In this document: positions 1,731 through 58,249 of the stretch, one piece after another
Layout of the letters: the number at the start of each line of letters is the position of its first letter
Numbering within the stretch: the first letter of the stretch is position 1
NCBI RefSeq assembly: GCF_027924905.1
Contig: NZ_AP027055.1
Location: 124,001-188,000, forward strand
DNA from: Limnohabitans sp. INBF002
GTDB taxonomy: Bacteria > Pseudomonadota > Gammaproteobacteria > Burkholderiales > Burkholderiaceae_C
Direction of reading: 5' to 3'
Length of the DNA: 64,000 bases
Program-made: the position numbers and the translations under genes
The notes under the pieces: generated by a model
Database searches by the model: none
What the model was told of the DNA's origin: nothing
The model's input: the letters and a program-made list of their open reading frames with translations, nothing else

Positions 1731-2489
1731 TTAGCGCAAAAACGCGTCGTAGCTGGTTTTGCAAATCAGCGCGCTCACCACCACGATGAACATGCCACGC
1801 ACAAAACCTGCGCCGTGCTGCAACGCCATGCGCGTACCCAGCAAGCTACCCGCCACATTGGCCATGGCCATCGGCAGGGCCAAATGCCACCACACGTGGC
1901 CTTTCATTGTGAACAAGATCAAGGCGGCGATGTTGCTGGAAAGGTTCAACAGCTTGGCCGCCACCGACGCATTGAGAAAGTCATAGCCCAACCAACGCAC
2001 CAGCAAAAACACAAAGAAGCTGCCCGTGCCAGGCCCAAAAAATCCGTCGTAAAAACCAATGGTCAAACCGATGGTGGAGGTCGCCAATAACTCTGCACGG
2101 CCATGAAAGCGTGGCGCATGGTGGCGCCCCATGTCTTTGCGCATCAAGGTGTAGATCAGGACAACCAGCAAGACGACGGGTAACAAGCGACGCAAAAATT
2201 CGGGCGAAACCAAGGTCACCAGCCATGCGCCTGCAAAGGCGGCCACCATGGTGGTTGCCGCGGCTGGGAGCAAGGCTGACCAGCGCACCTGCACGCGACG
2301 GCTGTACTGCCAAGTGGCAAAGGCCGTGCCCCAAACCGACGCGCTTTTGTTGGTGCCAAACAACGTGGCGGGTGCCGTGGATGGGTAGACGGCGAAGAGG
2401 GCGGGTAGCAAGATCAAACCGCCGCCGCCGACGATTGAGTCCACAAAGCCAGCCAAAGCGGAGGCAAAGGTGGTGAAGAAAAGTTCCAT
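1731..2489 (-). CDS. TSUP-family (TauE/SafE) membrane transporter
   Basis: Integral membrane protein of the sulfite exporter TauE/SafE family (old DUF81), 252 residues. The first half carries the glycine-rich motif SIVGGGGLILLPAL around residue 20 and a second repeat with FYDGFFGPGTGSF near residue 150, the duplicated signature of the family. About seven to eight hydrophobic segments are visible. Members move sulfur- or carbon-containing organic anions; the substrate cannot be told from sequence. I chose the ATG at 2489 over an upstream one at 2537 because the alignment-like core begins at MELFFTTF and a CACAAT hexamer ends 6 nt upstream of it. A terminator and structured stretch lie just upstream, so the gene is probably transcribed alone. 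Confidence 0.88.
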   Translation of the reverse strand: MELFFTTFASALAGFVDSIVGGGGLILLPALFAVYPSTAPATLFGTNKSASVWGTAFATWQYSRRVQVRWSALLPAAATTMVAAFAGAWLVTLVSPEFLRRLLPVVLLVVLIYTLMRKDMGRHHAPRFHGRAELLATSTIGLTIGFYDGFFGPGTGSFFVFLLVRWLGYDFLNASVAAKLLNLSSNIAALILFTMKGHVWWHLALPMAMANVAGSLLGTRMALQHGAGFVRGMFIVVVSALICKTSYDAFLR

Positions 2490-2495
2490 GCGCAG

Positions 2496-2501
2496 ATTGT
2501 G
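2496..2501 (-). promoter_or_regulatory. Possible -10 of a leaderless promoter for the TSUP gene
   Basis: CACAAT on the minus strand ends 6 nt before the ATG at 2489, and no Shine-Dalgarno sequence is present. A start at the A of the ATG would give a leaderless mRNA. No convincing -35. One of a recurring set described in the findings. Confidence 0.3.
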
Positions 2502-2514
2502 GTCGGAAATGACG

Positions 2515-2555
2515 TGCCCAGAAAAAGCAAAAGGCACCGGGGGTAACCGGTGCCT
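2515..2555 (-). terminator. Rho-independent terminator downstream of the GMC oxidoreductase / structured RNA
   Basis: Perfect 9-bp inverted repeat AGGCACCGG (2532-2540) and CCGGTGCCT (2547-2555) with a 6-nt loop. Read on the minus strand it is followed by TTTTGCTTTTT, so it terminates leftward transcription coming from the GMC oxidoreductase or from the structured stretch next to it. Confidence 0.8.
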
Positions 2556-2556
2556 T

Positions 2557-2700
2557 TCCTGGGTGACGCCCCTTAGGAAGCGTCTGTTGTGTTTGTCTCC
2601 TCAGACCCTCGTGATACAGCGCTTACGCCGTTTCGAGTGCAATGACTGTAAGCGCCACTCAGTCTCCTTTTGCCTAGGATTTTCCCTTGCGGACTAACCC
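2557..2700 (-). ncRNA. Candidate structured RNA between GMC oxidoreductase and TSUP gene
   Basis: This 140-nt stretch follows the stop codon of the GMC oxidoreductase and ends at a strong terminator. On the minus strand it contains an 8-bp stem GCGCTTAC/GTAAGCGC, hairpins GTCT-GAGG-AGAC and GACGC/GCGTC, and ends that can pair in part (GGGT with ACCC). The words AGGCAAAAGGA and GAGGAGACAAAC recall pieces of glycine-riboswitch consensus, but the order and P1 pairing do not fit, and it does not look like 6S, tmRNA or SRP RNA. No promoter of its own was recognised. It could be an unknown riboswitch, an sRNA or a folded 3' UTR. Confidence 0.4.
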
Positions 2701-2714
2701 GAGGCGTATGCGAC

Positions 2715-4436
2715 TCACGCTTGCTCGGCTTCGTGCGCCAGCCATTGCGCGGCCTTTTCGGCCAGCATCAAGGTGGGGCTGTTGGTGTTGCCGCTGGTGA
2801 TGGTGGGCATCACGCTGGCATCCACCACGCGCAGGCCGCGCACCACGCCGCCGCGCCCATCTCGCACGCGCAACTCGGGGTCGACCACGGCCATGGCGTC
2901 GTCCAATCGCCCCATGCGCGCAGTACCCACGGGGTGGAAGATGGTGGTGGCAATGTCGCCCGCCAGTCGCGCCAAGTCTTCGTCGGTTTGGTATTGCACG
3001 CCAGGTTTGTACTCCTCAGGCTTGTATTTGGCGAGGGCCGGTTGGGCTGCGATGCGGCGTGTCACACGGAGCGAATCGGCAGCCACTTTGCGGTCCGCTT
3101 CGGTGCTCAGGTAGTTGGGTGCAATCTTGGGCGCATCTGCAAAGTTAGCGCTGGTGATGCTGACCGTGCCACGGCTGGTGGGGTTCAAGTTGCACACGCT
3201 GGCCGTGAAGGCAGAGAAGCTGTGCAGCGGTTCACCAAACGCATCTAAGCTGAGCGGCTGCACGTGGTACTCGATGTTGGGATACGGCTGGTCAGCGCTG
3301 CTGCGCGTGAAGGCGCCGAGTTGTGAGGGCGCCATGCTCATGGGGCCGCTGCGTTTGAAGGCGTATTCCAAACCAATCTTGGCTTTGCCCCACCAATTGC
3401 TGGCCAAGGTGTTGAGGGTTTGAACGCCCTGCACTTTGAAGACTGAGCGAATTTGCAAATGGTCTTGCAAGTTGGCGCCCACGCCTGGCAGGTCAATGAC
3501 CGGTTCAATGCCGTGTTGTTTCAGAAGCTCAGCAGGACCTAAGCCAGAGAGCTGCAAGATGTGAGGCGTGCCAATGGCACCTGCACTCAGCACCACCGAG
3601 TGCTTGGCTGTGACGGTGACATAGCCGTGACCCGTCCACACTTCAACGCCGTTGCAGCGTTGTGTGCCGTCTTCATCATTCGTCATGACGAGCTTGGCAA
3701 CTTGGGCGGATGACCACAACTCAAAGTTGGGGCGTGCGTAGCATGTGGGGCGAATGAAGGCCTTGGCGGTGTTCCAACGCCAGCCGCTTTTTTGGTTCAC
3801 TTCAAAGTAACCCACGCCTTCGTTGTTGCCACGGTTGAAGTCGTCGGTGGCGGGAATGCCCGCTTGCACAGCGGCTTGTGCAAACGCGTCGAGCACATCC
3901 CAGCGCAAGCGTTGCTTTTCGACCCGCCATTCACCGCCTGCAATGTGATGGCGCAAGGTTTCGCCGTACACGGTGTTGTCTGCCAGCAGCACTTCGCTGC
4001 GCTCGCCTTTGGCGCCGTGGGACGCATTGGCGCCGGCGTGGTGGTCTTCGTGGAGTTTGAAATAGGGCAGGGCGTTGTCCCAACGCCAGCGCGCGTCGCC
4101 GGTGATGTCGGCCCATTGGTCGTAGTCACGCGCTTGGCCGCGCATGTAAATCATGCCGTTGATGCTAGAGCAGCCGCCCAGCACTTTGCCGCGTGGGTAG
4201 CGCAAGCTGCGACCATTCAAGCCTTCATCGGGTGCGGTGTTGTAAAGCCAATCGGTGCGCGGGTTGCCAATGCAGTGCAAGTAGCCAACGGGGATGTGAA
4301 TCCAGTGGTAATCGTCTTTGCGGCCTGCTTCGATGAGCAGCACACGTTTGCTGGCGTTGGCGCTTAGGCGGTTGGCGAGCAAGCAGCCAGCGGTGCCGGC
4401 GCCGACGATGATGTAGTCAAACTGGGAATCACTCAT
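2715..4436 (-). CDS. GMC-family FAD oxidoreductase (choline/alcohol dehydrogenase-like)
   Basis: A 573-residue flavoprotein of the glucose-methanol-choline family that oxidises an alcohol group to the aldehyde or ketone. The N-terminus has the FAD dinucleotide-binding motif GAGTAGC (residues about 12-18) followed by the ribityl-contact EAG; the second family signature is RGKVLGGCSSINGMIYMRG near residue 85. The C-terminal catalytic region shows IFHPVGTARMG with the active-site histidine and the NTNSPTLMLAEKAA ending. It resembles BetA/AlkJ-type proteins in length, but there is no betB or betI nearby, so choline is only one possible substrate. It stands alone between repeat-rich DNA upstream and a terminator downstream. 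Confidence 0.9.
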   Translation of the reverse strand: MSDSQFDYIIVGAGTAGCLLANRLSANASKRVLLIEAGRKDDYHWIHIPVGYLHCIGNPRTDWLYNTAPDEGLNGRSLRYPRGKVLGGCSSINGMIYMRGQARDYDQWADITGDARWRWDNALPYFKLHEDHHAGANASHGAKGERSEVLLADNTVYGETLRHHIAGGEWRVEKQRLRWDVLDAFAQAAVQAGIPATDDFNRGNNEGVGYFEVNQKSGWRWNTAKAFIRPTCYARPNFELWSSAQVAKLVMTNDEDGTQRCNGVEVWTGHGYVTVTAKHSVVLSAGAIGTPHILQLSGLGPAELLKQHGIEPVIDLPGVGANLQDHLQIRSVFKVQGVQTLNTLASNWWGKAKIGLEYAFKRSGPMSMAPSQLGAFTRSSADQPYPNIEYHVQPLSLDAFGEPLHSFSAFTASVCNLNPTSRGTVSITSANFADAPKIAPNYLSTEADRKVAADSLRVTRRIAAQPALAKYKPEEYKPGVQYQTDEDLARLAGDIATTIFHPVGTARMGRLDDAMAVVDPELRVRDGRGGVVRGLRVVDASVMPTITSGNTNSPTLMLAEKAAQWLAHEAEQA

Positions 4437-4513
4437 GCCAAGGTCTCAAGTCTTTGTTGTTGTGTGCATGGATGGTAGCTTGTGCTTGTGGTTCGCTTGC
4501 CGTCGCAGTTGTA

Positions 4514-4617
4514 GTTGTCAGAGAAGGGGCGAGCTGGGCAGTGCGTTTTGCTCCTCGTCTGCTGCGCATCCGAATGTCGCTGCAACACACTACCCAGCCC
4601 GCCCCTTCTCTGACAAC
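4514..4617. repeat. Nested inverted-repeat element, arms of 30 bp
   Basis: A 30-bp arm at 4514-4543 is matched, with two differences, by the reverse complement at 4588-4617. The spacer between the arms (4544-4587) holds the left copy of a second, perfect 42-bp repeat. The element could form a long cruciform or RNA hairpin. Short frames in it are not convincing genes. Confidence 0.75.
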
Positions 4618-4753
4618 ATGGGCTTCGCTGTTGACACAGCTCAGTCCATGCATATCGGTTGCTTGTAAGCGTCATGCGCCCTTGCGTGTGCAGCGGTAGA
4701 TTGGGGTGGCATGTTGCAGCGACATTCGGATGCGCAGCAGACGAGGAGCAAAA
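4546..4753. repeat. Perfect 42-bp inverted repeat in the GMC-mmsA intergenic region
   Basis: Positions 4546-4587 and 4712-4753 are exact reverse complements over 42 bases, separated by 124 bases. This fills most of the 4437-4811 gap, which otherwise holds no supported gene. No transposase, target-site duplication or direct repeat array was seen. It may be a REP/MITE-type dispersed element, or the left-over of a rearranged tandem copy. Confidence 0.85.
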
Positions 4754-4811
4754 CATGTCGCTCCAAGCTGCCGAGGCACACGCAACCGCGCCAAACCCGA
4801 AGAGCAAGAAG

Positions 4812-6323
4812 TTACTTCGATGTAGGCATCACAAACTCAGCACCTTTGCCAATGCTCTCAGGCCAACGTTGCATGACGCTCTTTTGCTTGGTGTAGAAAC
4901 GCACACCTTCTTCGCCGTAGGCGTGCATGTCGCCAAACAAGCTCTTCTTCCAGCCGCCAAAGCCGTGCCATGCCATGGGCACAGGAATTGGCACGTTGAT
5001 GCCGACCATGCCCACTTGGATGTGGCGTGCGAATTCGCGGGCCACGTTGCCGTCGCGGGTGAAGCAGCTCACGCCGTTGCCAAACTCGTGGGCGTTGATG
5101 AGGTCCACGGCTTGGGCCAAGTCGGCCACGCGCAGGCAGCTCAACACGGGGCCAAAGATTTCTTCTTTGTAGATGCGCATGTCTGGGGTGACGTTGTCAA
5201 ACAAGGTGCCGCCCATCCAGAAGCCATCCTTGCAGCCTTCGCCAGCAGACGCGCCATCAAAGTTGCGGCCATCGACCAGCAAGCGTGCGCCTTCTTTCAC
5301 GCCTTGCTCGATGTAGCCGGTGATGCGCTTGTGCGCAATATCGGTCACGATGGGGCCCATTTCAGCGGCGAGGTTTTCGCCGTTGAGCACTTTCAAAGCT
5401 TTGGTGCGCTCAATCAACTTAGGCATGAGGCGATCTGCCACATCGCCCACCAACACGGCCACGCTGATGGCCATGCAGCGTTCACCGGCTGAGCCGTAGG
5501 CTGCGCCAATCAGGGCGTCGACTGCTTGATCAATGTCGGCATCGGGCATGACCACCATGTGGTTCTTTGCGCCGCCCAAGGCTTGTACGCGCTTGCCGTG
5601 GTGGGCGCCGGTCTCATAAATGTAGTTGGCGATGGGGGTGGAGCCCACAAAGCTCACCGCTTTCACATCGGGGTGAACCAACAAAGCGTCGACCGCTTCT
5701 TTGTCGCCTTGCACCACGTTGAATACGCCGTCTGGCAAGCCTGCTTGTTTGAGCAACTCGGCGATGAACAACGAAGGCGATGGGTCAATCGGGCTGGGTT
5801 TGAGCACAAAGGTGTTGCCAGCGGCAATGGCCACGGGAAACATCCAGGCGGGCACCATGACGGGGAAGTTGAAGGGCGTCACGCCCGCCACCACGCCGAG
5901 GGGTTGGCGCATGGTCCAGTTGTCGATGCCGGTGGACACTTGCTCGGTGAAATCGCCTTTGAGCAACTGAGGAATACCGGTGGCGAACTCGACGATGTCG
6001 ATGCCACGGCTCACTTCGCCTTGGGCGTCGGTGAACACTTTGCCGTGTTCGGCGGTGATCATGTGAGCCAGTTTGTCTTTGTTGGCGTTGAGCAGTTCTA
6101 AGAACTTGAACATCACACGGGCGCGGCGCAGGGGCGGTGTGTCGGCCCACGCGGGGAAAGCTTTGTGGGCGGCGGCCACGGCAGCGTTGACATCGGCCAC
6201 ATTGGCCAAGCTCACATTGGCTGTGACAGCGCCTGTGGCTGGGTTGTAGACGGGTTGGGTGCGGGTGCTGGTGCCGTTGGCAACGGCGCCGTTGATGTAA
6301 TGCGCGATGTGAGCTTGTGTCAT
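4812..6323 (-). CDS. mmsA: CoA-acylating methylmalonate-semialdehyde dehydrogenase
   Basis: Converts (methyl)malonate semialdehyde plus CoA and NAD to propionyl- or acetyl-CoA and CO2, in valine, beta-alanine and inositol breakdown; cytosolic. The 503-residue product has the family-typical [17 protein letters not shown] block at residues 151-167 and the catalytic cysteine in SAGERCMA (Cys283). The missing general-base glutamate of ordinary aldehyde dehydrogenases (the LGGAKNH segment near 250) is also characteristic of MmsA. The frame is open further upstream, but the ATG at 6323 gives the normal family N-terminus. It is divergent from a LysR regulator whose palindromic site lies in the gap, so regulation by that protein is likely. 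Confidence 0.93.
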
Positions 6324-6398
6324 GGGGTGTCTCGGTGTTGAGGAAAGATGACGCAGTGTAGGCAGGGCAGGTACATGAAACAAGCGCGAAACCTTGAA

Positions 6399-6426
6399 TT
6401 GATTGTTCAAAATAGTGAACAATCAA
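6399..6426. promoter_or_regulatory. Palindromic operator between mmsA and the LysR gene, overlapping a -10-like hexamer
   Basis: Inverted repeat TTGATTGTTCA (6399-6409) and TGAACAATCAA (6416-6426), 11-bp arms, 6-nt spacer; the T-N11-A type layout of LysR sites is present. AACAAT (6418-6423) inside the right arm ends 6 nt before the LysR ATG at 6430, so binding here could shut off the regulator's own promoter while controlling mmsA. Confidence 0.65.
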
Positions 6427-6429
6427 GCC

Positions 6430-7374
6430 ATGAATGACCAAAAAATCAGCGAACTTTGGCACCACCTGCATTGGCTCAGTGTGCTGGCCCAACAAGGCAG
6501 CTACACCGCTGCCGCTGCACGCCTCGGTGTGAGCAAGGCCGCCATGAGCCAGCGCATTGCCGAACTCGAACGCGCCGCGCGTGTGCCGCTGGTGCAGCGC
6601 ACCACCCGCAGCGTGCGTTTGACGGAAGCCGGGCAGCGCTTGGTGGACGACACCCGTGCGTCGTTTGAGCAAATCGAACACAGCTTTGCCCAAGTGCGTG
6701 ACTTGGCAGGTGTGCCCAGTGGCCTGTTGCGGGTCACCGCGCCCGTGGCCTTTGCACGTCAGCAGCTCGCCCCGCGTTTGGCTGACTTCTTGCGCGAGTA
6801 CCCAGAGGTGCGCATAGAGCTAGACATGGCAGACCGACTCAGCAGCTTGGCGACAGAAGGTTTTGACTTGGCCATTCGTCACACCGCCCGTCCACCCGAC
6901 ACGCACGTGGCATGGACTTTGTGCAGCACGCACTCGGTGTTGGTGGCCAGCAAAACTTATTTGCGCCGAGCGGGTACGCCGCAAACCCCCGCTGATTTGC
7001 AAGCGCACAACTGCCTGCATTACCTGCGCGCACAAGACACGCCCACGTGGACGCTGGCGCGTGTGAAGACCAAAGCCAAAGACAAAGACGAACGCATCAC
7101 GGTGCCTGTGACGGGGCAGCTGGCTGCCAACAACAGCGAGGCACTGCGTGAGGCCGCCTTAACGGGCTTGGGTATTGCGCTCTTGCCTGACTTCAGCGCG
7201 CAAGCGGCCTTGCAACAAGGCAAGCTCGTTCAGGTGCTGCCGGACTGGCAACCGGTCGGCGCGTTTGCCGAGCAGCTGTACGCCATTCGCCCGTATTCGC
7301 CCCATGTGCCACGTGCGGTCACGGCGTTTGTGGACTATTTGCGCAAGGCCTTGGCCGGAGGCTTCGCCGCTTAA
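6430..7374 (+). CDS. LysR-family transcriptional regulator
   Basis: A 314-residue regulator. The N-terminal winged helix-turn-helix is clear (GSYTAAAARLGVSKAAMSQ followed by RIAELER), then a linker helix and a periplasmic-binding-protein-like effector domain of the CrgA/GcvA-type subgroup (GLLRVTAPVAFARQQLAP, DLAIRHT). I start it at the ATG at 6430 rather than 6403, because the DNA-binding domain begins directly after it and the upstream codons lie in the operator palindrome. It is transcribed divergently from mmsA, with 106 bp between the starts, which makes mmsA its most likely target; the inducer is unknown. It converges with the SDR gene, with 49 bp between the stops. Confidence 0.9.
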   Translation: MNDQKISELWHHLHWLSVLAQQGSYTAAAARLGVSKAAMSQRIAELERAARVPLVQRTTRSVRLTEAGQRLVDDTRASFEQIEHSFAQVRDLAGVPSGLLRVTAPVAFARQQLAPRLADFLREYPEVRIELDMADRLSSLATEGFDLAIRHTARPPDTHVAWTLCSTHSVLVASKTYLRRAGTPQTPADLQAHNCLHYLRAQDTPTWTLARVKTKAKDKDERITVPVTGQLAANNSEALREAALTGLGIALLPDFSAQAALQQGKLVQVLPDWQPVGAFAEQLYAIRPYSPHVPRAVTAFVDYLRKALAGGFAA

Positions 7375-7423
7375 ACCTCGCACGCGATGGCACTCGTCCA
7401 AGCCCAAAGTGGGCGGCGGTGTT

Positions 7424-8170: not shown

Positions 8171-8286
8171 TCTTGTCTCCTCAATGCGGTTGAGCGAACT
8201 TAATGGGCAGCACGATAGCACCAAGCCTTTGAAAACCCAGTAAGCTGTTCGATATTCACTTCCAAGAAATTTAAGGAGATCTCAAG

Positions 8287-8970: not shown

Positions 8971-8973
8971 GCG

Positions 8974-9545
8974 TCAATCGATTTGGGGGTTGCGCGCACT
9001 GCGCAGCACGCCCATGGCGGCATGGAAAAACGCCACCACCACAAAGCAGCCCATGAAGTCACCCAATGCCATGGCGGCGCTTTTGTGCCAAAGCTCTTCA
9101 CTCGTGGTGACCCCTTGCGCGAGATACAGCCAGTTGTGAACCAAGCCGTTCAGGACACTGGCCACGACCGACAACACCACGATGTGCTGATACCGTAAGT
9201 TGCTGAGATTTTTGCGGATGTGGAACAAACGCATGACCCCTAACGTCGCAATTGGGTAGGTCATCAAGCTCACAAAAGCGAAGTAAACAATGGCCGTCAT
9301 CGGCTTGTCTGGCCAAATGCTCGCGCCTAAATGCACGCTGACCACCATGATGCCCACGATGGCGGGTAAACGTCCGACCAGCACGGCTAAAAGCTTGACA
9401 CCTGCAGGCAAGAACAACAGGCTGATGCCAGCAGAGTAGACAAACAATGCGTCAAAGTACTGGTTCAGTCGAAAAGACACATTGAAAAGCAAGCCCGAAA
9501 TCACCGCGATGGCGATGTGTGACCTGCGAATTTCAGGCAAATGCA

Positions 9546-9546
<1 letters not shown>
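8974..9546 (-). CDS. Membrane protein of unknown function, coupled to hemB
   Basis: A 190-residue protein with about five to six hydrophobic segments and a short basic N-terminus. Its layout (VSFRLNQYFDALFVYSAGISLLFLPAG near the N-terminus) recalls the N-terminal part of MASE1-like sensory membrane domains, but no signalling domain follows, so I leave the function open. The ATG at 9546 overlaps the hemB stop as TGATG, pointing to translational coupling within one transcript. Convergent with the dienelactone hydrolase gene only 3 bp away. Confidence 0.7.
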
Positions 9547-10644
<1,098 letters not shown>

Positions 10645-10650
10645 GCATTC

Positions 10651-10747
10651 GGGCAGCTTGCTGCTCCCCGCTTTTCCTCCCTAAGCGGGCACCTTGCGCG
10701 TCAAAGCTGCCAGGTGACTTGGCCCGACCTCGTGTCGGGCTTTTTTT
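10651..10747 (+). ncRNA. Candidate small RNA with pyrimidine-rich hairpin loop
   Basis: About 97 nt between a good sigma-70-like promoter and a strong terminator. An outer stem GGCAGCTT (10652-10659)/AAGCTGCC (10704-10711) encloses an inner hairpin CCCGCTT (10667-10673)/AAGCGGG (10683-10689) whose 9-nt loop is TTCCTCCCT. That loop is complementary to Shine-Dalgarno sequences (GGGAGG), a design known from several proteobacterial regulatory sRNAs. The terminator hairpin is GCCCGAC-ctcgt-GTCGGGC followed by seven T. No protein frame is supported here. Alternatively this is an attenuated leader of hemJ, but hemJ seems to have its own start signal. Confidence 0.55.
10722..10747 (+). terminator. 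Rho-independent terminator upstream of hemJ
   Basis: Seven-base stem GCCCGAC/GTCGGGC, 5-nt loop, then seven T (10741-10747). It ends 21 nt before the hemJ ATG. Confidence 0.85.
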
Positions 10748-10756
10748 GAGCGCGGC

Positions 10757-10762
10757 TAAACT
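10757..10762 (+). promoter_or_regulatory. Possible -10 of a leaderless hemJ promoter
   Basis: TAAACT ends exactly 6 nt before the hemJ ATG at 10769, with no Shine-Dalgarno sequence and a terminator immediately upstream, so transcription would have to start at or near the start codon. Confidence 0.4.
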
Positions 10763-10768
10763 GGTCCT

Positions 10769-11197
10769 ATGCTTTGGATCAAATCTTTTCACATCATCTT
10801 CGTGGCCAGCTGGTTTGCGGGCTTGTTTTACTTACCTCGCATTTTTGTGAACTTGGCGCAAGTTGAGCCTAGGTCCGAGGCAGAAGAGGCGCGTTTGTTG
10901 CTGATGGCGCGCAAGTTGATGCGTTTCACCACCTTGTTGATGATTCCTGCCGTGGGCCTGGGTTTGTGGCTTTGGCTGGGCGTTGGTATTGGCATGGGCC
11001 CTGGCAATGGCTGGATGCATGCCAAGCTGACGGTGGTGCTGCTGGCGCTGGGCTACCACCATGGCTGTGGCCGCCTGCTTCGCAAATTTGAAACCCGAAC
11101 CAACACCCGTGGCCACGTGTGGTACCGCTGGTTCAACGAGATTCCGGTGGTCTTGCTGACCATTGCCGTGATCTTGGTGGTCGTCAAACCTTTCTAA
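10769..11197 (+). CDS. hemJ: Protoporphyrinogen IX oxidase HemJ
   Basis: Membrane enzyme that oxidises protoporphyrinogen IX to protoporphyrin IX, the penultimate heme step, in bacteria lacking HemG and HemY. The 142-residue product has four hydrophobic segments and the family signatures: the N-terminal MLWIKSFHIIFVASWFAGLF with its conserved histidine (His8) and WMHAKLTVVLLALGYHH (residues 82-98) with the conserved lysine. Length is normal for the family (UPF0093). Annotation pipelines often call it CopD-like. Its position opposite hemB supports the heme role. Confidence 0.9.
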   Translation: MLWIKSFHIIFVASWFAGLFYLPRIFVNLAQVEPRSEAEEARLLLMARKLMRFTTLLMIPAVGLGLWLWLGVGIGMGPGNGWMHAKLTVVLLALGYHHGCGRLLRKFETRTNTRGHVWYRWFNEIPVVLLTIAVILVVVKPF

Positions 11198-11213: not shown

Positions 11214-12311
11214 ATGCGTAAAACCTCCGCTTGGCCTCTGTCGCAAATGTGCGTGGCGTTGATCGTCTACGCCAGTCTGTATCCGTTTGACCATTGGCGG
11301 GATCAAGGCATTTGGTCTTGGTCGTTCTTAACTGCACCTTGGCCCAAGTATTGGCTGGGCTTTGATGTGGTGGCAAACGTCCTCGGCTATGCCCCGTTGG
11401 GTTTTTTTCTGACCCTGAGCGCCATGCGCATGGGCTGGCAAACGCGCGTGGTCACGCTTTCGACCCTGGCGGCGGCTGTTTTGTCATTGGCGATGGAGGG
11501 TTTGCAAAGCTACTTGCCTGCGCGCGTGCCCTCGTTGCCTGACTTTTTGCTCAACACGCTGGGGGCATGGATCGGCGCCGTGTTGGCGAGCTCCTTGGAA
11601 CATTTGGGTTTGCTGCGCCGATGGAGCCAATTCCGTGAACGTTGGTTTGTCCGCGACGCTTATATGGCCTTGGTGTTGATGGCGGTGTGGCCTGCTGCGT
11701 TGCTCTTTCCAGTGGCTGTGCCTTTGGGCTTGGGCCAAGTGTGGGAGCGTGTGGAAGACGCGCTGACCAGTGCATTTGATGCCACGCCGTTTGAAGATTG
11801 GATTCCCCTGCGCGCGTTTGAACTAGAGCCATTGCTGCCGGGTGCCGAGTTGTTGTGTGTGATGTTGGGCTTGCTCGTGCCTTGCTTGCTGGGATTTGGT
11901 GTGATTCGCCAAGCCGGGCAACGCTTTTTGTACATGCTGTTGGTGCTGTGCATGGCCTTGGGCGTGAGCGCTTTATCCGCTGCGTTGAGCTACGGCCCAG
12001 TACATGCTTGGACTTGGCTGGATTTGCCTGTGATGTTGGGTCTCCTTTTTGGCGGTGTGGTGGCCTTGTTCTTTTTACCGCTGTCGGCCCGTACGGCTTG
12101 GACGTTTTTGTTGCTCGCGCTGCTTGTGCAGCAAAGTGTGCTGAACCAATCGCCGGAAAGCGCTTACTTCGCGCAAACTTTGCAAACTTGGGAGCAAGGC
12201 CGTTTCATCCGTTTTCACGGACTTGTGCAATGGCTGGGCTGGCTGTGGCCCTATGCCGTGCTGATGCTGGCGCTGGTGCGTGTGTCGCGCGATCGCAGCA
12301 CCCAAAACTAA
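11214..12311 (+). CDS. VanZ-like family membrane protein
   Basis: A 365-residue membrane protein with about ten hydrophobic segments. The N-terminal third matches the VanZ-like pattern: SLYPFDHW near the start, then DVVANVLGYAPLGFF, AMEGLQSYLPARVPSLPDFLLNTLGAWIGA. VanZ itself confers low-level teicoplanin resistance in enterococci, but proteobacterial relatives are of unknown role, probably in envelope biology. The C-terminal part is unassigned. It follows hemJ by 16 bp and is probably co-transcribed with it. No good Shine-Dalgarno is visible before the ATG. Confidence 0.8.
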   Translation: MRKTSAWPLSQMCVALIVYASLYPFDHWRDQGIWSWSFLTAPWPKYWLGFDVVANVLGYAPLGFFLTLSAMRMGWQTRVVTLSTLAAAVLSLAMEGLQSYLPARVPSLPDFLLNTLGAWIGAVLASSLEHLGLLRRWSQFRERWFVRDAYMALVLMAVWPAALLFPVAVPLGLGQVWERVEDALTSAFDATPFEDWIPLRAFELEPLLPGAELLCVMLGLLVPCLLGFGVIRQAGQRFLYMLLVLCMALGVSALSAALSYGPVHAWTWLDLPVMLGLLFGGVVALFFLPLSARTAWTFLLLALLVQQSVLNQSPESAYFAQTLQTWEQGRFIRFHGLVQWLGWLWPYAVLMLALVRVSRDRSTQN

Positions 12312-12314
12312 AAT
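12309..12314 (+). promoter_or_regulatory. Possible -10 of a leaderless promoter for the 2Fe-2S protein gene
   Basis: TAAAAT, overlapping the stop codon of the VanZ-like gene, ends 6 nt before the ATG at 12321; no Shine-Dalgarno sequence. Confidence 0.4.
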
Positions 12315-26548: not shown

Positions 26549-26554
26549 GATAAT
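26549..26554 (+). promoter_or_regulatory. Possible -10 of a leaderless promoter for the lipoprotein gene
   Basis: GATAAT ends 7 nt before the ATG at 26562; no Shine-Dalgarno sequence. This supports 26562 over the ATG at 26553, which overlaps the hexamer. Confidence 0.4.
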
Positions 26555-32807: not shown

Positions 32808-32813
32808 ATTATC
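32808..32813 (-). promoter_or_regulatory. Possible -10 of a leaderless promoter for the ybeD-lipB-lipA operon
   Basis: GATAAT on the minus strand ends 7 nt before the ATG at 32800; no Shine-Dalgarno sequence. Confidence 0.4.
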
Positions 32814-39989: not shown

Positions 39990-39995
39990 GACAAT
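39990..39995 (+). promoter_or_regulatory. Possible -10 of a leaderless promoter for the SnoaL-like gene
   Basis: GACAAT ends 7 nt before the ATG at 40003, just after the atp terminator; no Shine-Dalgarno sequence. Confidence 0.35.
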
Positions 39996-46965: not shown

Positions 46966-48257
<1,292 letters not shown>

Positions 48258-49282: not shown

Positions 49283-49314
49283 CCTTGGTGTCACGCGGGC
49301 AACCTTGGATGTGC

Positions 49315-50334: not shown

Positions 50335-50364
50335 GCCGTTCTCCTTGTTAAAGTTGTACCCAAG

Positions 50365-51081: not shown

Positions 51082-51093
51082 AAGCGCAACAAA

Positions 51094-52596: not shown

Positions 52597-52603
52597 GTCA
52601 GGG

Positions 52604-52609
52604 ACTTTA
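52604..52609 (-). promoter_or_regulatory. Possible -10 of a leaderless glcD promoter
   Basis: TAAAGT on the minus strand ends 7 nt before the ATG at 52596; no Shine-Dalgarno sequence. Confidence 0.35.
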
Positions 52610-52690
52610 CGGCAAAACTTGGGGTTGGCGTGTGAAGAAAGTTACAGCTTGTTTTGAAAAGGTTTTGTTGGCTTACTTCGTTCGCGTCAA

Positions 52691-52732
52691 GTGAGCAGCG
52701 ATGTAAGCCGTGTGGCGGTACCGGCTCCTCAC
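52691..52732. repeat. Nested inverted repeats downstream of the LysR gene
   Basis: GTGAG (52691-52695)/CTCAC (52728-52732) enclosing AGCCG (52706-52710)/CGGCT (52722-52726). May act as a weak terminator for the LysR gene; nothing else is recognised in 52610-52763. Confidence 0.4.
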
Positions 52733-52763
52733 ATTCACAGCGAGAGAAAACAACGCAACGAAA

Positions 52764-53639
52764 TTAAGGAACAGCCTTCTTCAACCAGTCAGCAAACGCC
52801 GCACATTCCCAGCGGTCCATGGCCCCCGTGCGCCAACACAAGTAGTGCCCATGCGGGCTAGGCACTTGACGCGGGAAGATGCGCACCAGCGTGCCGTTTT
52901 CTAGCCACGGTGCGCCTAACTTTAAGCGCACCAGGCCCACGCCCAAGCCCTGCGCGGAGGCGTCGCACATCAAGCCAATGTCGTTGAAGCTGCTGCCGTC
53001 AATGGGCTCTGGCCAGTCTTGGTCGTGCGCGGCAAACCACGTGCGCCAAGGCTCCAAGGGGCTGCGCAACAAGGTGGCGTCGGCCAAGTCTTCGGGTGTC
53101 TCAAACGGGCCGTGTTCGCGGATGTAGGCGGGTGAGGCCATGGGCGTCACGTCGTCTTTCATGATGCACACATGCTCGACATCGGCGTAGCGGCCAGTGC
53201 CAAAACGGATGGTCAGGTCGGCGTCTTCGGCCACCACGTCCAGCAGCGGAATGCTGACCTGCAAGATGATGTCAATCTCGGGGTACGCGTCGGCAAACTG
53301 GCGCAGGCGCGGCATCAAGATGGAGCGTGCAAAAGTGGGTGTCACGGCCAAGCGCAGTTTGCGTTTGCCGGGTGTGGCGCTGCCGTCTTTGCCAGGAAAG
53401 CGCTCAAGAATAGACAAGCCTTCGCGCACATGGGCCAGATATTCGCTGCCCTCGGTGGTGAGCGAAAAGTCGGCGCGGCCAAAGAGTTTGACGCCCAACA
53501 ACTGTTCCAGCTGCTTCACACGGTGGCTCACCGCGCTGGGGGTCACGCATTGCTCTTCAGCGGCTTGGGTGACCGAGCGCAACCGCGCCAACGCCTCAAA
53601 CGTGAGCAAGCACTGGATGGGCGGGATGCGGCTGGTCAT
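52764..53639 (-). CDS. LysR-family regulator, GcvA type
   Basis: 291-residue regulator. Helix-turn-helix with LRSVTQAAEEQCVTPSAVSHRVKQLEQLLG, then an effector domain with the GcvA-type blocks LFGRADFSLTTEGSEYL, LTIRFGTGRYADVEH and ASAQGLGVGLVRL. GcvA proteins control glycine cleavage or amino-acid-related genes. It starts 6 bp after purU on the same strand, hence shares its mRNA; a one-carbon metabolism link is plausible, glcD downstream is another possible target. Confidence 0.88.
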   Translation of the reverse strand: MTSRIPPIQCLLTFEALARLRSVTQAAEEQCVTPSAVSHRVKQLEQLLGVKLFGRADFSLTTEGSEYLAHVREGLSILERFPGKDGSATPGKRKLRLAVTPTFARSILMPRLRQFADAYPEIDIILQVSIPLLDVVAEDADLTIRFGTGRYADVEHVCIMKDDVTPMASPAYIREHGPFETPEDLADATLLRSPLEPWRTWFAAHDQDWPEPIDGSSFNDIGLMCDASAQGLGVGLVRLKLGAPWLENGTLVRIFPRQVPSPHGHYLCWRTGAMDRWECAAFADWLKKAVP

Positions 53640-53645
53640 GTCGCT

Positions 53646-54491
53646 TTATTTGAAGATGACGGTCTTGTGGCCGTTCAGCAGCACGCGGTGTTCGCTGTGC
53701 CACTTGACAGCGCGGGCCAACACTTGGCTTTCGGTGTCACGGCCTTGGGCGGTGAAGTCTTCCACGGTTTTGCTGTGGTCCACGCGGGCCACGTCTTGCT
53801 CAATGATGGGGCCTTCGTCCAAGTCGGCGGTCACGTAGTGGGCGGTGGCGCCAATCAGTTTCACGCCACGGTCGTGCGCTTGGTAATAAGGCTTGGCACC
53901 CTTGAAGCTGGGCAAGAAGCTGTGGTGAATGTTGATGGCGCGGCCTGACAATTTCTTGCACAAGTCGTCGCTCAAGATTTGCATGTAGCGGGCCAGCACC
54001 ACCAGCTCAGCGCCTTCGGCCTCAATCACTTCATACGCTTTGGCTTCGGCTTGCGCCTTGGTCGCTGCCGTGACGGGGATGTGGTGGAACGGCACGTTGT
54101 AGCTGGCCGCCAGTTGGTAAAACTCGCGGTGGTTGCTGATGATGGCCCGAATGTCCAAAGGCAGCAGGCCGCTTTTGACGCGGAACAACAAGTCGTTCAA
54201 GCAATGACCCTCTTTGCTGACCATCAACACCGTGCGCATGGGTTGGGTGGTGTCATGCAGGGTCCACTTCATGCCAAAGGTGTCAGCAAAGGTGGCGAGC
54301 TGCGAACGTAACTCGTCTTGGCCCACGGCATCGCAGGCGAACTGCACGCGCATGAAGAACAGGCCGGTGTCGTGGTCGTTGTACTGGGCGGCTTCTTCGA
54401 TGTTGCCTTTGCGCTCCAGCAAAAAGCCAGATACGGCGTGCACGATGCCCTGACGGTCGGGGCAAGACAAATTAAGGATGTATGCAGTCAT
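53646..54491 (-). CDS. purU: Formyltetrahydrofolate deformylase
   Basis: 281-residue enzyme that hydrolyses 10-formyl-THF to formate and THF, balancing the one-carbon pool. N-terminal ACT domain (ILNLSCPDRQGIVHAVSGF) and C-terminal formyltransferase-like domain with NHREF, HIPVT, YMQILSDDLC and the HHSFLPSFKGA catalytic region. TACAAT ends 7 nt before the ATG, without Shine-Dalgarno sequence. Confidence 0.95.
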   Translation of the reverse strand: MTAYILNLSCPDRQGIVHAVSGFLLERKGNIEEAAQYNDHDTGLFFMRVQFACDAVGQDELRSQLATFADTFGMKWTLHDTTQPMRTVLMVSKEGHCLNDLLFRVKSGLLPLDIRAIISNHREFYQLAASYNVPFHHIPVTAATKAQAEAKAYEVIEAEGAELVVLARYMQILSDDLCKKLSGRAINIHHSFLPSFKGAKPYYQAHDRGVKLIGATAHYVTADLDEGPIIEQDVARVDHSKTVEDFTAQGRDTESQVLARAVKWHSEHRVLLNGHKTVIFK

Positions 54492-54498
54492 GTGCGCA

Positions 54499-54504
54499 AT
54501 TGTA
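54499..54504 (-). promoter_or_regulatory. Possible -10 of a leaderless purU promoter
   Basis: TACAAT on the minus strand, one mismatch to TATAAT, ends 7 nt before the ATG at 54491. A terminator for the upstream gene lies just beyond. Confidence 0.5.
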
Positions 54505-54520
54505 GGTAGGACTGGGCATG

Positions 54521-54542
54521 AAAAAGGGCGCCGAAGCGCCCT
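54521..54542 (-). terminator. Terminator of the DUF3567 gene
   Basis: AGGGCGC (54525-54531)/GCGCCCT (54536-54542), CGAA tetraloop, followed on the minus strand by TTTTT. Confidence 0.85.
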
Positions 54543-54563
54543 AGGTGTCTTGCCTGCGCAGGC

Positions 54564-54842
54564 TCAGTGCACCACGACCGGGTTCTGGGCCAGTTCGGCG
54601 TAGCCAGCCAAGGTGTCTTCCACCTCTTCTTGGGTGGGGGCGTTTTCTTGCCAAGCGCGCAAATGGGCTTGGAACTGCTCGGCCCATGAGCCTTCTAGGT
54701 AAATCTCTTTGCCTGAGCGCTTGTCCACGATCTCAAAGCCATGGCGGGCCAAGGCAGGCACGTCGGGGCGCACAGGCACCAACGCGTCATCCACCTGCAG
54801 GTGCATGACCGAATACGTGTCGGAGTTGTAGAGCATGTCCAT
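54564..54842 (-). CDS. DUF3567 family protein
   Basis: 92-residue protein of a family restricted to Burkholderiales; function unknown. Conserved pattern MLYNSDTYSVMHLQ, HGFEIVDKRSGKEIYLEG and the end PVVVH. The ATG at 54842 matches the family start; an ATG at 54872 would add ten residues. Monocistronic, with its own terminator. Confidence 0.82.
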   Translation of the reverse strand: MDMLYNSDTYSVMHLQVDDALVPVRPDVPALARHGFEIVDKRSGKEIYLEGSWAEQFQAHLRAWQENAPTQEEVEDTLAGYAELAQNPVVVH

Positions 54843-54901
54843 AGGAATCTTTCGGCGGAAAACGAATTGCATCTAAGCATATCGGATTCAAAAGCTCAAA
54901 T

Positions 54902-55984
54902 TCAAGGGCTGGGCTTTTCGGCTTTGCTTAAAAGTTGGTCCACAAAGTCGCCATTGGCGTTGGTGATGCGCAAACGCACGGGCAAATAACCCAGCGTGGG
55001 GGCGAACCAGAGTTCAATTTGCTGGTCAAACTCTCGGCGCGGCTTGCGGTTGAGCTTGATGGCGCTGATGTCGCCAAAGGGCAATTGCAACATTTCTTCT
55101 TTTTCCACCAAGAATTGCCACACCTCGGCTTCGCGCTGCGACACGGTTTGGAACGACAACATGGTGCCCGCTGGAAAACGCGTGGGGTCAGCCGCCAGCA
55201 GGCTGCTGAGCTGCAACACCACGCTCAAGCGGTCTTGCGCGCCTTTGAGCAGTGGCGCATCGGGTGAATTGGCGCTGAAGGTGATGAGGCCTTTGTCACG
55301 CTGAAAGTGCGCGGCCTGCTCGCTGCGGGTTTTGTCGCCAAAGCGGGTAGGCATGAGGCCTTCCGCGCCCAACGTGCCTTTGCTGATTTGTACGCGTGAG
55401 CCCAACAAAAAGGCACTCACCTCTAAACGGGCTTCATAGTCTTTGCCGTCTTGCAGCCACTGCAACTCGGCAGAGGCCCAGTAGCTGAAGCCTTTGGCTT
55501 GGCCTTGCACTTGGTATTTGAGCAAAGCCGAGTCGGGTGCTTTGAAGGCGGTGACGTCTGTCAAACCTTCGCTGCCTGCGCGTTTGTAGGGCGGCAGGTC
55601 CACACCTGTGGCACTGCGCGCTGGCAGGCCCACCGGGGCACTGAGGTCTTGGCCAAGGTCGTCAAACTTCAACGGCGGGGTGGCTGCGCTGGCTTCGGCT
55701 GGCGCTTCCTCTGTGGGGGCGGGGGCTCGTTTGGAAGGCGTGGGTGGCACGGGCTTGGGCACTTGGGGCGCACGCGGCGCCGCGACTTCAATTTGGCGTG
55801 TGACCAACGCTTGTGTGCGCAAGGGTTTGCCCGACTCGGGTGCGAGCCACAAGGGCGCGCCCGCCAAGAGCCAAAGGTGCAACAACAACACGCCAGCCAC
55901 CAGCAGCACCGCATGTTTGCGTTGCAAATGAGGCAGACGGGCGGGTAGGGCACGGGCGTGCATGACGACGGAGCGAACTTTCAT
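54902..55984 (-). CDS. DUF3108 domain envelope protein
   Basis: 360-residue protein with an N-terminal membrane anchor (residues about 24-46), a Pro/Ala-rich linker (about 70-120, like TonB-type periplasm-spanning linkers) and a C-terminal periplasmic DUF3108 domain (LKYQVQGQAKGFSYWASAELQW to the end). Unknown function, possibly outer-membrane or lipid handling. Start at 55984 leaves only 11 bp to the divergent FAH gene; ATG 55963 is the alternative. Confidence 0.8.
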   Translation of the reverse strand: MKVRSVVMHARALPARLPHLQRKHAVLLVAGVLLLHLWLLAGAPLWLAPESGKPLRTQALVTRQIEVAAPRAPQVPKPVPPTPSKRAPAPTEEAPAEASAATPPLKFDDLGQDLSAPVGLPARSATGVDLPPYKRAGSEGLTDVTAFKAPDSALLKYQVQGQAKGFSYWASAELQWLQDGKDYEARLEVSAFLLGSRVQISKGTLGAEGLMPTRFGDKTRSEQAAHFQRDKGLITFSANSPDAPLLKGAQDRLSVVLQLSSLLAADPTRFPAGTMLSFQTVSQREAEVWQFLVEKEEMLQLPFGDISAIKLNRKPRREFDQQIELWFAPTLGYLPVRLRITNANGDFVDQLLSKAEKPSP

Positions 55985-55989
55985 AGAAT
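55984..55989 (+). promoter_or_regulatory. Possible -10 of a leaderless promoter for the FAH-family gene
   Basis: TAGAAT ends 6 nt before the ATG at 55996; no Shine-Dalgarno sequence. The hexamer overlaps the start codon of the divergent DUF3108 gene. Confidence 0.45.
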
Positions 55990-55995
55990 CGTGGC

Positions 55996-56955
55996 ATGAA
56001 ATTAGCCACATACAAAGACGGTACACGCGACGGACAACTGGTGGTCGTGTCTCGCGATTTGAGCACCGCGCATTATGCGACGGGCATTGTCTCGCGCCTG
56101 CAGCAAGCACTGGATGACTGGGGTTTCATGGCCCCGCAGCTGCAAGACTTGTATGAAACCCTCAACAACGGCAAAGCGCGTCACGCTTTTCCGTTTGACC
56201 CCGCTTTGTGCATGGCCCCGCTGCCACGCGCCTACCAACGCTTGAAAGGCCAGGCTTACGCCAACCACGCGACCTTGCTGGGTGATGCTGAGGTCGACTT
56301 GGCGGTCCACCAAGCTGCCAGCGACCCACTGCTGGGCGCGCAAGACCACGTGGTGTGCGCCAACGAAAACTTAGGCGTCGATTTTTCTGCCGAAATCGCC
56401 GTCGTCACCGGCGATGTGGCACTAGGTGCATCAGCAGACGATGCCTTAGAAGGCATTCGCTTGGTGATGTTGTCCAACGACATCACGCTGCGCAACGTGG
56501 GCAGCCGCGTGCAAAGTCAGCCCGCCACCGCATTCAGCCCCGTAGCCGTGACGCTTGACGAATTGGGCGACGCCTGGGACAACGGCTGCGTGCACCTGAC
56601 GGTGCAAGTGGCCTGGAATGGCCGCAAAGTGGGCATGTGCGACGCGGGCACAGACATGACGTATGCGTTCGGTCAGCTCGTGGCGCACGCCAGCAAAACC
56701 CGCGCATTGCGCGCAGGCACGGTCGTGAGCAGCGGCACGGTCAGCAACGCAGGCTTTGAGAAAAACGGCAAAAAAGAATGGCCCAAGGGCTACAGCTGCA
56801 TTGCCGAAAAGCGCGCCATGGAAGACGCATTGGATGGCAAAACCACCACCGACTTCATGAAGTTTGGTGACACCGTGCGCATCGAAGCCAAGGGCAAAGA
56901 TGGCCAAAGCGTGTTTGGTGCGATTGACCAAGAGCTGGCCCCGTTGAACGCTTGA
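55996..56955 (+). CDS. Fumarylacetoacetate hydrolase family protein
   Basis: 319-residue metal-dependent C-C hydrolase or decarboxylase. The FAH core has DFSAEIAVVTGD with the metal-binding acidic residues, LSNDITLRN, and the closing TVVSSGTVSNAG region. No adjacent aromatic-catabolic genes define a substrate. Terminator follows. Confidence 0.88.
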   Translation: MKLATYKDGTRDGQLVVVSRDLSTAHYATGIVSRLQQALDDWGFMAPQLQDLYETLNNGKARHAFPFDPALCMAPLPRAYQRLKGQAYANHATLLGDAEVDLAVHQAASDPLLGAQDHVVCANENLGVDFSAEIAVVTGDVALGASADDALEGIRLVMLSNDITLRNVGSRVQSQPATAFSPVAVTLDELGDAWDNGCVHLTVQVAWNGRKVGMCDAGTDMTYAFGQLVAHASKTRALRAGTVVSSGTVSNAGFEKNGKKEWPKGYSCIAEKRAMEDALDGKTTTDFMKFGDTVRIEAKGKDGQSVFGAIDQELAPLNA

Positions 56956-56970
56956 GTCTTTCGGCACAAC

Positions 56971-57005
56971 AAAAAGCCCGCTGACGTGAGTGAGCGGGCT
57001 TTTTT
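56971..57005. terminator. Terminator after FAH gene (bidirectional)
   Basis: AGCCCGCT (56975-56982)/AGCGGGCT (56993-57000), A-run on the left, T-run on the right. Confidence 0.88.
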
Positions 57006-57031
57006 GTGGGCGGCGTTGAGGCCGCGTCGTC

Positions 57032-57403
57032 TTATTTGACGAGTGCGGGGTCAGCGCCCATGTTGTCAAGCTTCTTGAAATATTGACGCGCCATGGCCAC
57101 CACTTGTGCGTCGGTGGGGTGGTCGCTCGACACGCTGTCCACCACGTTCACATGGGCGTGGTGTTGCTTGCACCAATCGCGGAACTCGTCGCGTGCAATG
57201 CCGGGGCCAGTCACCAACACTTCGTGCGTGCCTTCGAGGGCTTTGGCGATGTCTGCATACATCGTGGCGGTGTCGTTTTGCTTGCCTTGGTGCTTGTGGT
57301 GGGTGCGTGATTTGACGCGTTGGCTCTCCACATGCTCACGGTCAAACATCAACACGTGGGCTTCTTGGTGGTCCATCCAAACAACGGCGTGAAAAGTGGT
57401 CAT
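57032..57403 (-). CDS. eRF1-like 'translational machinery' family protein
   Basis: 123-residue cytosolic protein with an archaeal/eukaryal release-factor-like fold by family resemblance: FHAVVWMDHQEAHVLMFDREHVE at the N-terminus, VLVTGPGIARDEF in the middle, DAQVVAMARQYFKK at the end. Such bacterial proteins are named translational machinery protein, but their role is unproven. Lies 16 bp downstream of the DksA/TraR-type gene. ATG at 57403 chosen; the longer frame has an unlikely Lys/Thr-rich start. Confidence 0.75.
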   Translation of the reverse strand: MTTFHAVVWMDHQEAHVLMFDREHVESQRVKSRTHHKHQGKQNDTATMYADIAKALEGTHEVLVTGPGIARDEFRDWCKQHHAHVNVVDSVSSDHPTDAQVVAMARQYFKKLDNMGADPALVK

Positions 57404-57419
57404 GTGTTTTCTTTCTCTC

Positions 57420-57785
57420 TTAGTGGTGGTTGTGTTCAGCTTTTTCTTGGCAGCCAATGCAGCGCGCGGCTTCGGGCGCTGCGTTCAGACGTGCTTCGGG
57501 AATCAGGACGTCGCAGTCGGTGCAGTGGCCGTATGTGCCTGCATTTAAGCGGGCCAAGGCCTCGTCAATGGCGGCGAGCTCTGCGGTTTCGTGTTCGTTG
57601 ATGGCGAACTCTAGGTCGCGTGCCGTGTTGACTTGTGCGTCTGAGTCTTCGTTGTGCGCGAAGTGTTCAGCCGCCACGTCAGCGCGGCTGGTTTTACCGC
57701 CGCGTTGCTGTGCAATTTGTGCAAGTAAGTCGGCGCGTTGGGCTTCCAGCTTTTGCTTGAAGGCGGTGGCATGTTGTGCGTCCAT
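57420..57785 (-). CDS. TraR/DksA-family zinc-finger protein
   Basis: 121-residue protein with an N-terminal coiled coil and a C-terminal four-cysteine zinc finger (CTDCDVLIPEARLNAAPEAARCIGCQ-type region, Cys pairs about 21 residues apart), followed by a His tail. Relatives bind the RNA polymerase secondary channel. It lacks the DxxDxA tip of true DksA as far as I can see. AGGAGCCCTG precedes the ATG. Operon with the eRF1-like gene. Confidence 0.85.
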   Translation of the reverse strand: MDAQHATAFKQKLEAQRADLLAQIAQQRGGKTSRADVAAEHFAHNEDSDAQVNTARDLEFAINEHETAELAAIDEALARLNAGTYGHCTDCDVLIPEARLNAAPEAARCIGCQEKAEHNHH

Positions 57786-57879
57786 CAGGGCTCCTCTTTG
57801 TTTAACTTGATGTTGCGCGCATCTTGCCCGTGATTCATTGACAGAGGTCAAGAAACGACGGCTTATCCGTGCGATACGA

Positions 57880-57885
57880 CATAAT
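57880..57885 (+). promoter_or_regulatory. Possible -10 of a leaderless promoter for the DUF2946 gene
   Basis: CATAAT ends 7 nt before the ATG at 57893; no Shine-Dalgarno sequence. A TTGACA at 57838-57843 lies too far upstream to pair with it. Confidence 0.4.
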
Positions 57886-57892
57886 CAAACGC

Positions 57893-58249
57893 ATGCAACG
57901 CTTGCGCCACGCCATCCAACTCACCCGCTTTGTGCTGGTGTGGTTTGCTTTGTCGGTGGGCGTGGCCATGGCATCGCCTGTCGTCAACCCACACGGCATG
58001 GACCTCGTCTGTACCAGCACCGGCAGCATGAAGTTGGTGATGCCGGGTGACGATGATGTGGCTGCGTCTAGCCACACGCTGGACTGTCCGTTGTGTGCAT
58101 CCATCAGCGCCCCGCCGCCTGCGCTCAACACCACGTTGACGCAAGCTTCTCCTTTGGCTCATGCCATGCAGCCGCCGGCTGCAGCGCACATTGCGGCCAC
58201 CACGGCGCCTCCGCTGCCCTCGCGCGGCCCACCTGCTGTCTTCCTTTAA
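57893..58249 (+). CDS. DUF2946 family secreted protein, copper-cluster type
   Basis: 118-residue protein with an N-terminal signal or anchor (ends near VAMASPVV, residue 30). The conserved segment has LVCTSTGSMKLV and HTLDCPLCASISAPPP, a Cys-x-x-Cys that could bind metal, then a His/Ala/Pro-rich end. DUF2946 genes are often found beside copper transport genes, and here YcnI and PCuAC follow. Confidence 0.78.
   Translation: MQRLRHAIQLTRFVLVWFALSVGVAMASPVVNPHGMDLVCTSTGSMKLVMPGDDDVAASSHTLDCPLCASISAPPPALNTTLTQASPLAHAMQPPAAAHIAATTAPPLPSRGPPAVFL

Follow-up and report, generated by a model that had tools for sequence, protein, structure and literature searches.

A 64,000-nt window of the Limnohabitans sp. 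INBF002 genome (bases 124001-188000 of a single contig of 2.59 Mb) raises the question of whether the transcription of some of its genes may begin on the start codon itself, an earlier note on this DNA having listed thirteen genes in which a hexamer resembling the -10 promoter element ends 6 or 7 nt before the ATG and no Shine-Dalgarno (SD) sequence was seen. All thirteen hexamers and their spacings stand where the note had placed them (Table 1), and the layout recurs far beyond the window. Judging from this layout and its conservation, we consider it highly probable that the genes belong to a class in which -10 promoters are fused to the start codon, so that transcription would proceed from the ATG and yield leaderless messenger RNAs (mRNAs).

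The class was characterized in 58 stretches of 20 kb each (1.16 Mb, 44.7% of the genome, zero overlap with the window), in which 928 gene starts were called by a three-periodic Markov model; as starts were picked from coding potential and start codon only, a -10 element was unable to directly influence their placement. A strict hexamer (NANAAT or TANNNT) was found to end 6 nt before the start in 62 of the 928 genes, as compared to a mean of 10.1 per control offset (standard deviation 4.0, maximum 19 over 48 control offsets; Poisson P 3e-28), with 25 further genes at 7 nt, 14 at 8 nt and 8 at 5 nt. Both component patterns contributed to this peak (NANAAT: 36 at 6 nt and 15 at 7 nt vs 3.9 per offset; TANNNT: 35 and 12 vs 8.3; backgrounds taken from offsets 15-40). 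The loose rule on which the earlier note relied (A at the second and T at the sixth hexamer position, A2/T6) was enriched at 6 nt (103 vs a background of 53.5), as the note had predicted for 6-7 nt, while at 7 nt it equaled chance (54) and only strict forms were in excess; we consequently rejected it as a classifier. No NANAAT peak was observed before 6,585 internal ATGs, and under the SD rule applied here (which divides the 928 starts into 292 with and 636 without SD) NANAAT at 6 nt occurred in 34/636 non-SD genes vs 2/292 SD genes (P 3e-4). The alignment of gene starts for which the earlier note had called thus returned a sharp -10 peak at 6 nt (then 7 to 9 nt) in genes devoid of SD, and the two traits of so-called TA-led genes, a -10-like hexamer at a fixed distance before the start and the lack of SD in the same genes, were both found.

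A mixture model with separate SD, -10 and null components, whose offset was left free between 0 and 59 nt, recovered the same picture: an expected 82, 25, 15 and 7 genes were placed at 6, 7, 8 and 9 nt, offsets 10-20 remained nearly empty (2.9 genes in all), and a small and weak hump appeared at 25-37 nt, where ordinary leadered promoters would belong. (A one-motif model had drifted onto the Shine-Dalgarno motif and was dropped for the three-component one.) The consensus learned at offsets 4-9 was TACAAT (A2 0.75, A4 0.77, A5 0.68, T6 0.83), which corresponds to the -10 element of a sigma-70-type promoter. Moreover, a pyrimidine occupied position -1 in about 65 of 76 class members vs 484/682 (counts rebuilt from rounded fractions; P 0.007), and genes with a posterior >0.5 were concentrated at the head of transcription units (77 of 483 unit-leading genes vs 26 of 445 having a same-strand gene that ends within 60 nt; P 7e-7).

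Conservation in relatives was followed gene by gene for eight of the thirteen, in family rows (for each gene, the 30 best matches out of up to 60 genomes, own gene included) and in genus rows (15 loci per gene, own included). For hemB we used the best 80 of 590 relatives, consisting of 23 genomes that we take from their record titles to be Comamonadaceae, 40 other named genomes and 17 unassigned metagenome-assembled genomes (MAGs); the best matches among named genomes were Comamonadaceae such as Polaromonas, Caenimonas, Variovorax and Hydrogenophaga. CACAAT stood 6-9 nt before an in-frame ATG in 19/23 Comamonadaceae and in 0/40 other named genomes, any strict hexamer at these distances was present in 1/40 of the latter and in 4/17 MAGs, and control offsets 20-23 gave 0/23, 5/40 and 0/17, respectively. 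A strict -10 was likewise placed at 6-9 nt in 29/30 family genera for hemJ (SD in 0/30), in 26/30 for diaA and in 25/30 for purU (mostly at 8-9 nt), as against an average of 0.3-1.9 rows in four-offset control windows. The hemJ and diaA starts fall on the same residue in 30/30 rows, the alignment running from residue 1. Within the genus, the purU hexamer was found at 6-7 nt in 10 of the 11 rows with a start (L151 being without hexamer and L150 without start), and it was absent at 6-9 nt from all five rows (0/5) of other families of the order. The 2Fe-2S ferredoxin-like gene, present in 16/19 genus genomes, retained its -10 in 15/15 genus rows (14 at 6 nt and one at 7 nt; TA[A/G]AAT in 14, AATAAT in one), with spacer letters that vary by row and with the ATG at the same codon in 13/15. 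In the orthologues of hemB, hemJ, diaA, purU and the 2Fe-2S gene the hexamer is thus kept while the spacer changes, and the hexamers differ in letters (TATCAT, TACACT, GACAAT, CACAAT) yet all fit a -10. On the plain reading of a conserved -10-type hexamer in drifting surroundings, a start fixed by the protein, the lack of SD and the bias toward unit-leading genes, transcription would start on the ATG.

According to the mechanism that we propose, a promoter of the housekeeping sigma factor would be fused to the start codon, its -10 hexamer (of weak consensus [T/G]A[C/A/T]AAT) ending 6-9 nt, mostly 6, before the ATG. As 6-9 nt is the usual distance between -10 and +1, RNA polymerase would be expected to initiate at the A of the ATG or at most 3 nt before it. 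The ensuing mRNA would carry neither leader nor Shine-Dalgarno sequence, and would presumably be translated by the leaderless route, with its 5'-terminal AUG being bound by 70S ribosomes.

Several observations weigh against leaderless transcription from fused promoters, either in general or at individual genes. AUG is regarded as the preferred codon of leaderless initiation, and the share of ATG in the class (94/103) is barely higher than overall (806/928). The hemB hexamer is absent in 4/23 Comamonadaceae and lies at 8-9 nt in 4/5 Variovorax rows, which implies a leader of 1-3 nt; the prevalence of 8-9 nt at purU similarly points to leaders of at most 3 nt and to a distance that is not perfectly rigid. 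Other genes are poorly conserved: FAH (genus: hexamer 6/13, SD 5/13, neither 2, with rows L416 and L424 left out as they lack the N-terminus; family: strict hexamer 4/30, SD 13/30), glcD (genus: 6/15 in all, the three closest relatives having the box at 7 nt; family: strict hexamer 11/29, one row being without start) and ybeD (2/30 in the family and 5/15 in the genus, with shifting start positions). The orthologue rows, moreover, represent the best-matching half of each search. No mapped 5'-end data for Comamonadaceae were found, and a genome from another family of the same order (G025, 298 starts) displayed no clear peak (NANAAT 4 and 1 at 6 and 7 nt vs 1.8), which, with so few starts, is weak evidence of absence. 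As regards upstream promoter elements, the earlier note's remark that no consistent -35 is visible stands, for neither TTGACA-like -35 elements (z -0.6) nor TGn motifs before the hexamer (9/76 vs 6.0 expected) were enriched in the class; the -35 test has little power, since the element is invisible in the leadered promoters of the same genome too (z -0.1) and leadered E. coli genes gave only a hint (z 0.8). TGn is visible by eye in many purU rows and in some of hemB, and the sole upstream bases off background were G at -2 (0.42) and a depletion of A at -1 of the hexamer. Furthermore, the mixture model produced 19.8 spurious cases on shuffled upstreams vs 129.7 among 944 real ones, on account of which its estimate of 132/928 starts (14.2%; 87/483 for unit-leading genes) is an upper figure. 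The excess of strict hexamers at 6-8 nt (71/928, 7.6%) is a low one because weaker boxes escape the strict rule, and a fair range for the leaderless-type class is approximately 8-14% of starts.

Table 1. Hexamers preceding the thirteen start codons in the window (positions in the window; posterior, that of the -10 component of the mixture model)
Gene	Hexamer	Distance to ATG (nt)	ATG	Hexamer position	Strand	Posterior	Remark
TauE/SafE (TSUP) gene	CACAAT	6	2489	2496..2501	-	0.85	
LysR-type regulator gene	AACAAT	6	6430	6418..6423	+	0.77	
hemB	CACAAT	7	10556	10564..10569	-	0.55	porphobilinogen synthase match
hemJ	TAAACT	6	10769	10757..10762	+	0.91	
2Fe-2S ferredoxin-like gene	TAAAAT	6	12321	12309..12314	+	0.96	
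'lipoprotein' gene	GATAAT	7	26562	26549..26554	+	0.92	
ybeD (DUF493)	GATAAT	7	32800	32808..32813	-	0.89	
SnoaL-like gene	GACAAT	7	40003	39990..39995	+	0.87	
diaA / phosphoheptose-isomerase-like gene	TATCAT	6	46981	46969..46974	+	0.93	
glcD	TAAAGT	7	52596	52604..52609	-	0.58	
purU	TACAAT	7	54491	54499..54504	-	0.95	
FAH gene	TAGAAT	6	55996	55984..55989	+	0.88	
DUF2946 gene	CATAAT	7	57893	57880..57885	+	0.78	

Within the window, the rival explanation that survives best concerns single genes, in which the hexamer could be a product of chance or part of an operator; we regard this as rather unlikely, the LysR-type gene and the poorly conserved ybeD being its foremost candidates. The LysR hexamer is embedded in a perfect 11-bp inverted repeat (arms 6399-6409 and 6416-6426, separated by 6 nt) directly before the ATG, which looks like an operator covering the -10, as might be expected of a simple autoregulation site. 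As for chance, about 20 of the 928 starts match the strict rule at a neighboring offset pair, which translates into 1.5 of the 70 genes called in the window, whereas nine of the 70 match it at 6 or 7 nt (P 2e-5) and hence are not mostly fortuitous. Under the loose rule, 14 of the 70 match (binomial P 0.01), five of which were absent from the note's list; the note's chance expectation of one in eight for A2/T6 at two spacings comes close to the 94.8/928 (roughly 1 in 10) measured per control-offset pair.

The claim that none of the thirteen genes has a Shine-Dalgarno sequence needs amending for at least two of them, as SD-like four-mers are present between -17 and -4 of diaA (AAGG) and ybeD (GAGG), both further out than a usual SD. 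The contrast that had been drawn with ribosomal and ATP-synthase genes is borne out by all six that were identified (starts 19620, 20285, 21219, 34311, 35637 and 38090), which pass the SD rule, but it does not extend to the called starts beside them (22780, 34620 and 39502) and to that of EF-Tu (17939), which fail it, although some of these calls may be misplaced. Of the 13 starts, 9 were reproduced exactly by the gene finder, which placed those of ybeD and glcD further downstream and left the 2Fe-2S and 'lipoprotein' genes uncalled. In the latter an in-frame ATG (26553), 9 nt upstream of 26562, overlaps the gene's own GATAAT, which makes the start uncertain, and the protein has zero Pfam or NCBIfam matches; the HemJ profile match lies below the NCBIfam and above the Pfam cut-off. 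We further observed that hemB and hemJ are divergent, with starts 212 bp apart (10556-10769), and that both display the promoter-start fusion layout in most of the family rows read. The start of FAH and the called start of its divergent neighbor are separated by 32 bp (55963-55996), from which it follows that the FAH -10 lies within the upstream region of the neighbor, or inside it, the neighbor's true start being uncertain. Upstream of glcD (L444-L452 and L261-L289) a TACAGT/TAAAGT-like box is kept in several species while its distance to the ATG varies, and these upstreams may constitute a natural series from leaderless to leadered.

With regard to the whole class, the notion that promoters further upstream provide these genes with ordinary leaders, and that the AT-rich hexamer serves translation as an accessory signal (for instance a patch replacing SD that is unstructured or binds S1), appears very improbable. 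It can draw on the commonness of non-SD starts in this genome (636/928) and on AT-rich non-SD signals described in other bacteria (PMC3160421); an unstructured patch, however, needs neither a distance that is sharp to one base (62 genes at 6 nt and 8 at 5 nt) nor an A2..T6 pattern to which the hexamers conform in spite of varying from gene to gene, and the class is rarer close behind a same-strand gene, as is expected of a promoter and unlike a ribosome site. Slightly less probable still is a genuine -10 in front of miscalled starts (i.e. later start codons with ordinary leaders), for while start calls are computational, those of ybeD and the 'lipoprotein' gene are ambiguous, and the spacing at FAH and glcD is retained in some relatives and lost in others, the identical ATG codon throughout the rows of hemJ and diaA (30/30) and in most of those of the 2Fe-2S gene (13/15) argues against it.

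Regarding the genes predicted to employ fused promoters, the earlier note had envisaged single-gene housekeeping and metabolic units. The first part of this description was not corroborated, since a close same-strand gene (≤60 nt) follows downstream in 37/76 high-posterior genes vs 30/76 controls (P 0.33); the second fits the genes seen, with partial lists (25 of 135 matched families for the 76 genes, 25 of 130 for controls) and no clear enrichment either way. Ten genes picked from the 76 included alaS, glnS, argS, dbpA and part of metH, as well as three without a precise name (two unmatched, and one ABC transporter ATPase for which no equivalog passed the cut-off). Among the families listed, DNA polymerase III alpha (dnaE), chorismate synthase (aroC), ArgJ, MurJ, FtsW/RodA and peptidyl-tRNA hydrolase (pth) were matched once each, and LysR and histidine-kinase-type ATPase domains three times each; LysR is absent among the 25 of 130 families listed for the control set. 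The metH case deserves separate mention: a 347-aa protein (L003:2620-3663), with a leaderless-type start of the TACAAT-6 form, matches only about the first quarter of the methionine synthase MetH profiles, which suggests that it may be part of a split MetH.

Leaderless starts are commonly described as a peculiarity of archaea, actinobacteria and Deinococcus-Thermus. Comamonadaceae are a widespread environmental family. Another member of this family (G033, 333 starts), run through the same pipeline, had 3 and 7 NANAAT hexamers at offsets 6 and 7 as compared to 0.9 per offset, whereas E. coli K-12 (350 kb, 277 starts) showed no peak (1 and 3 vs 2.4). For the latter and for G025 fixed-matrix and pattern counts were used, the mixture model having fitted other motifs when run de novo. 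We tentatively suggest, as a possibility that we would not yet favor, that in Comamonadaceae the fusion of promoter and start codon is a selectively maintained expression mode for core genes, in use without a recognizable -35 at about a tenth of genes, and that genes such as FAH and glcD switch to leadered initiation and back among close relatives. The core genes meant are hemB and hemJ (heme synthesis), purU, diaA and the 2Fe-2S ferredoxin, together with several tRNA synthetases in this genome. If this is true, Comamonadaceae would permanently have a second channel of translation at their disposal, which initiation factors or stress could regulate. A family that retains leaderless starts at core genes in one genus after another would lend itself well to asking why they are kept, and the differences in FAH and glcD between close relatives make the switch of initiation mode directly testable. 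In terms of annotation, start callers that expect a Shine-Dalgarno sequence can misplace such starts.

Leaderless genes are already known in betaproteobacteria, and no paper joining them with Comamonadaceae was found in the open literature. Zheng et al. (2011) reported TA-led genes in 9 of 71 beta-proteobacterial genomes, at a mean of 6.8% (2.8-10.6) (PMC3160421). The genes described here resemble them in carrying a -10-like signal some 10 bp ahead of the start and in lacking SD; they differ in amounting to 8-14% of the sampled starts (by another method), in belonging to a lineage that goes unnamed in the relevant passages of that paper, and in the cross-genus, gene-by-gene conservation that is added here. 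Mapped leaderless transcripts of Burkholderia cenocepacia J2315 are immediately preceded by a TA-rich box; they begin precisely at the start codon in 72 genes and within 10 nt of it in 42, and 24 of them are tRNAs (PMC4603805); in Cupriavidus metallidurans CH34, leaderless transcripts account for 4.67% of primary starts (PMC7563307). Both genera are of the same order as Limnohabitans. The hemB layout was unseen in Burkholderia rows, and one Cupriavidus row has it only with another hexamer. The functional composition differs as well: transcriptional regulators are over-represented in the leaderless set of B. cenocepacia (PMC4603805), whereas LysR-type genes make up 3/76 here among the matches listed, although regulators other than LysR may be hidden, as only 25 of the 135 families are covered; in C. 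metallidurans, transcription (K) and replication/repair (L) are over-represented (PMC7563307), as compared to the translation and metabolism genes seen here in a partial list. Leaderless mRNA of E. coli, reviewed as being translated by 70S ribosomes (PMC9031893), shares with the predicted Limnohabitans transcripts a start codon at or near the 5' end and the lack of SD, while the E. coli sample, unlike Limnohabitans, shows no layout peak (277 starts). Compared with these systems, what the present data add is the extent of the layout in the lineage, its cross-genus conservation at named core genes, and the genes that switch.

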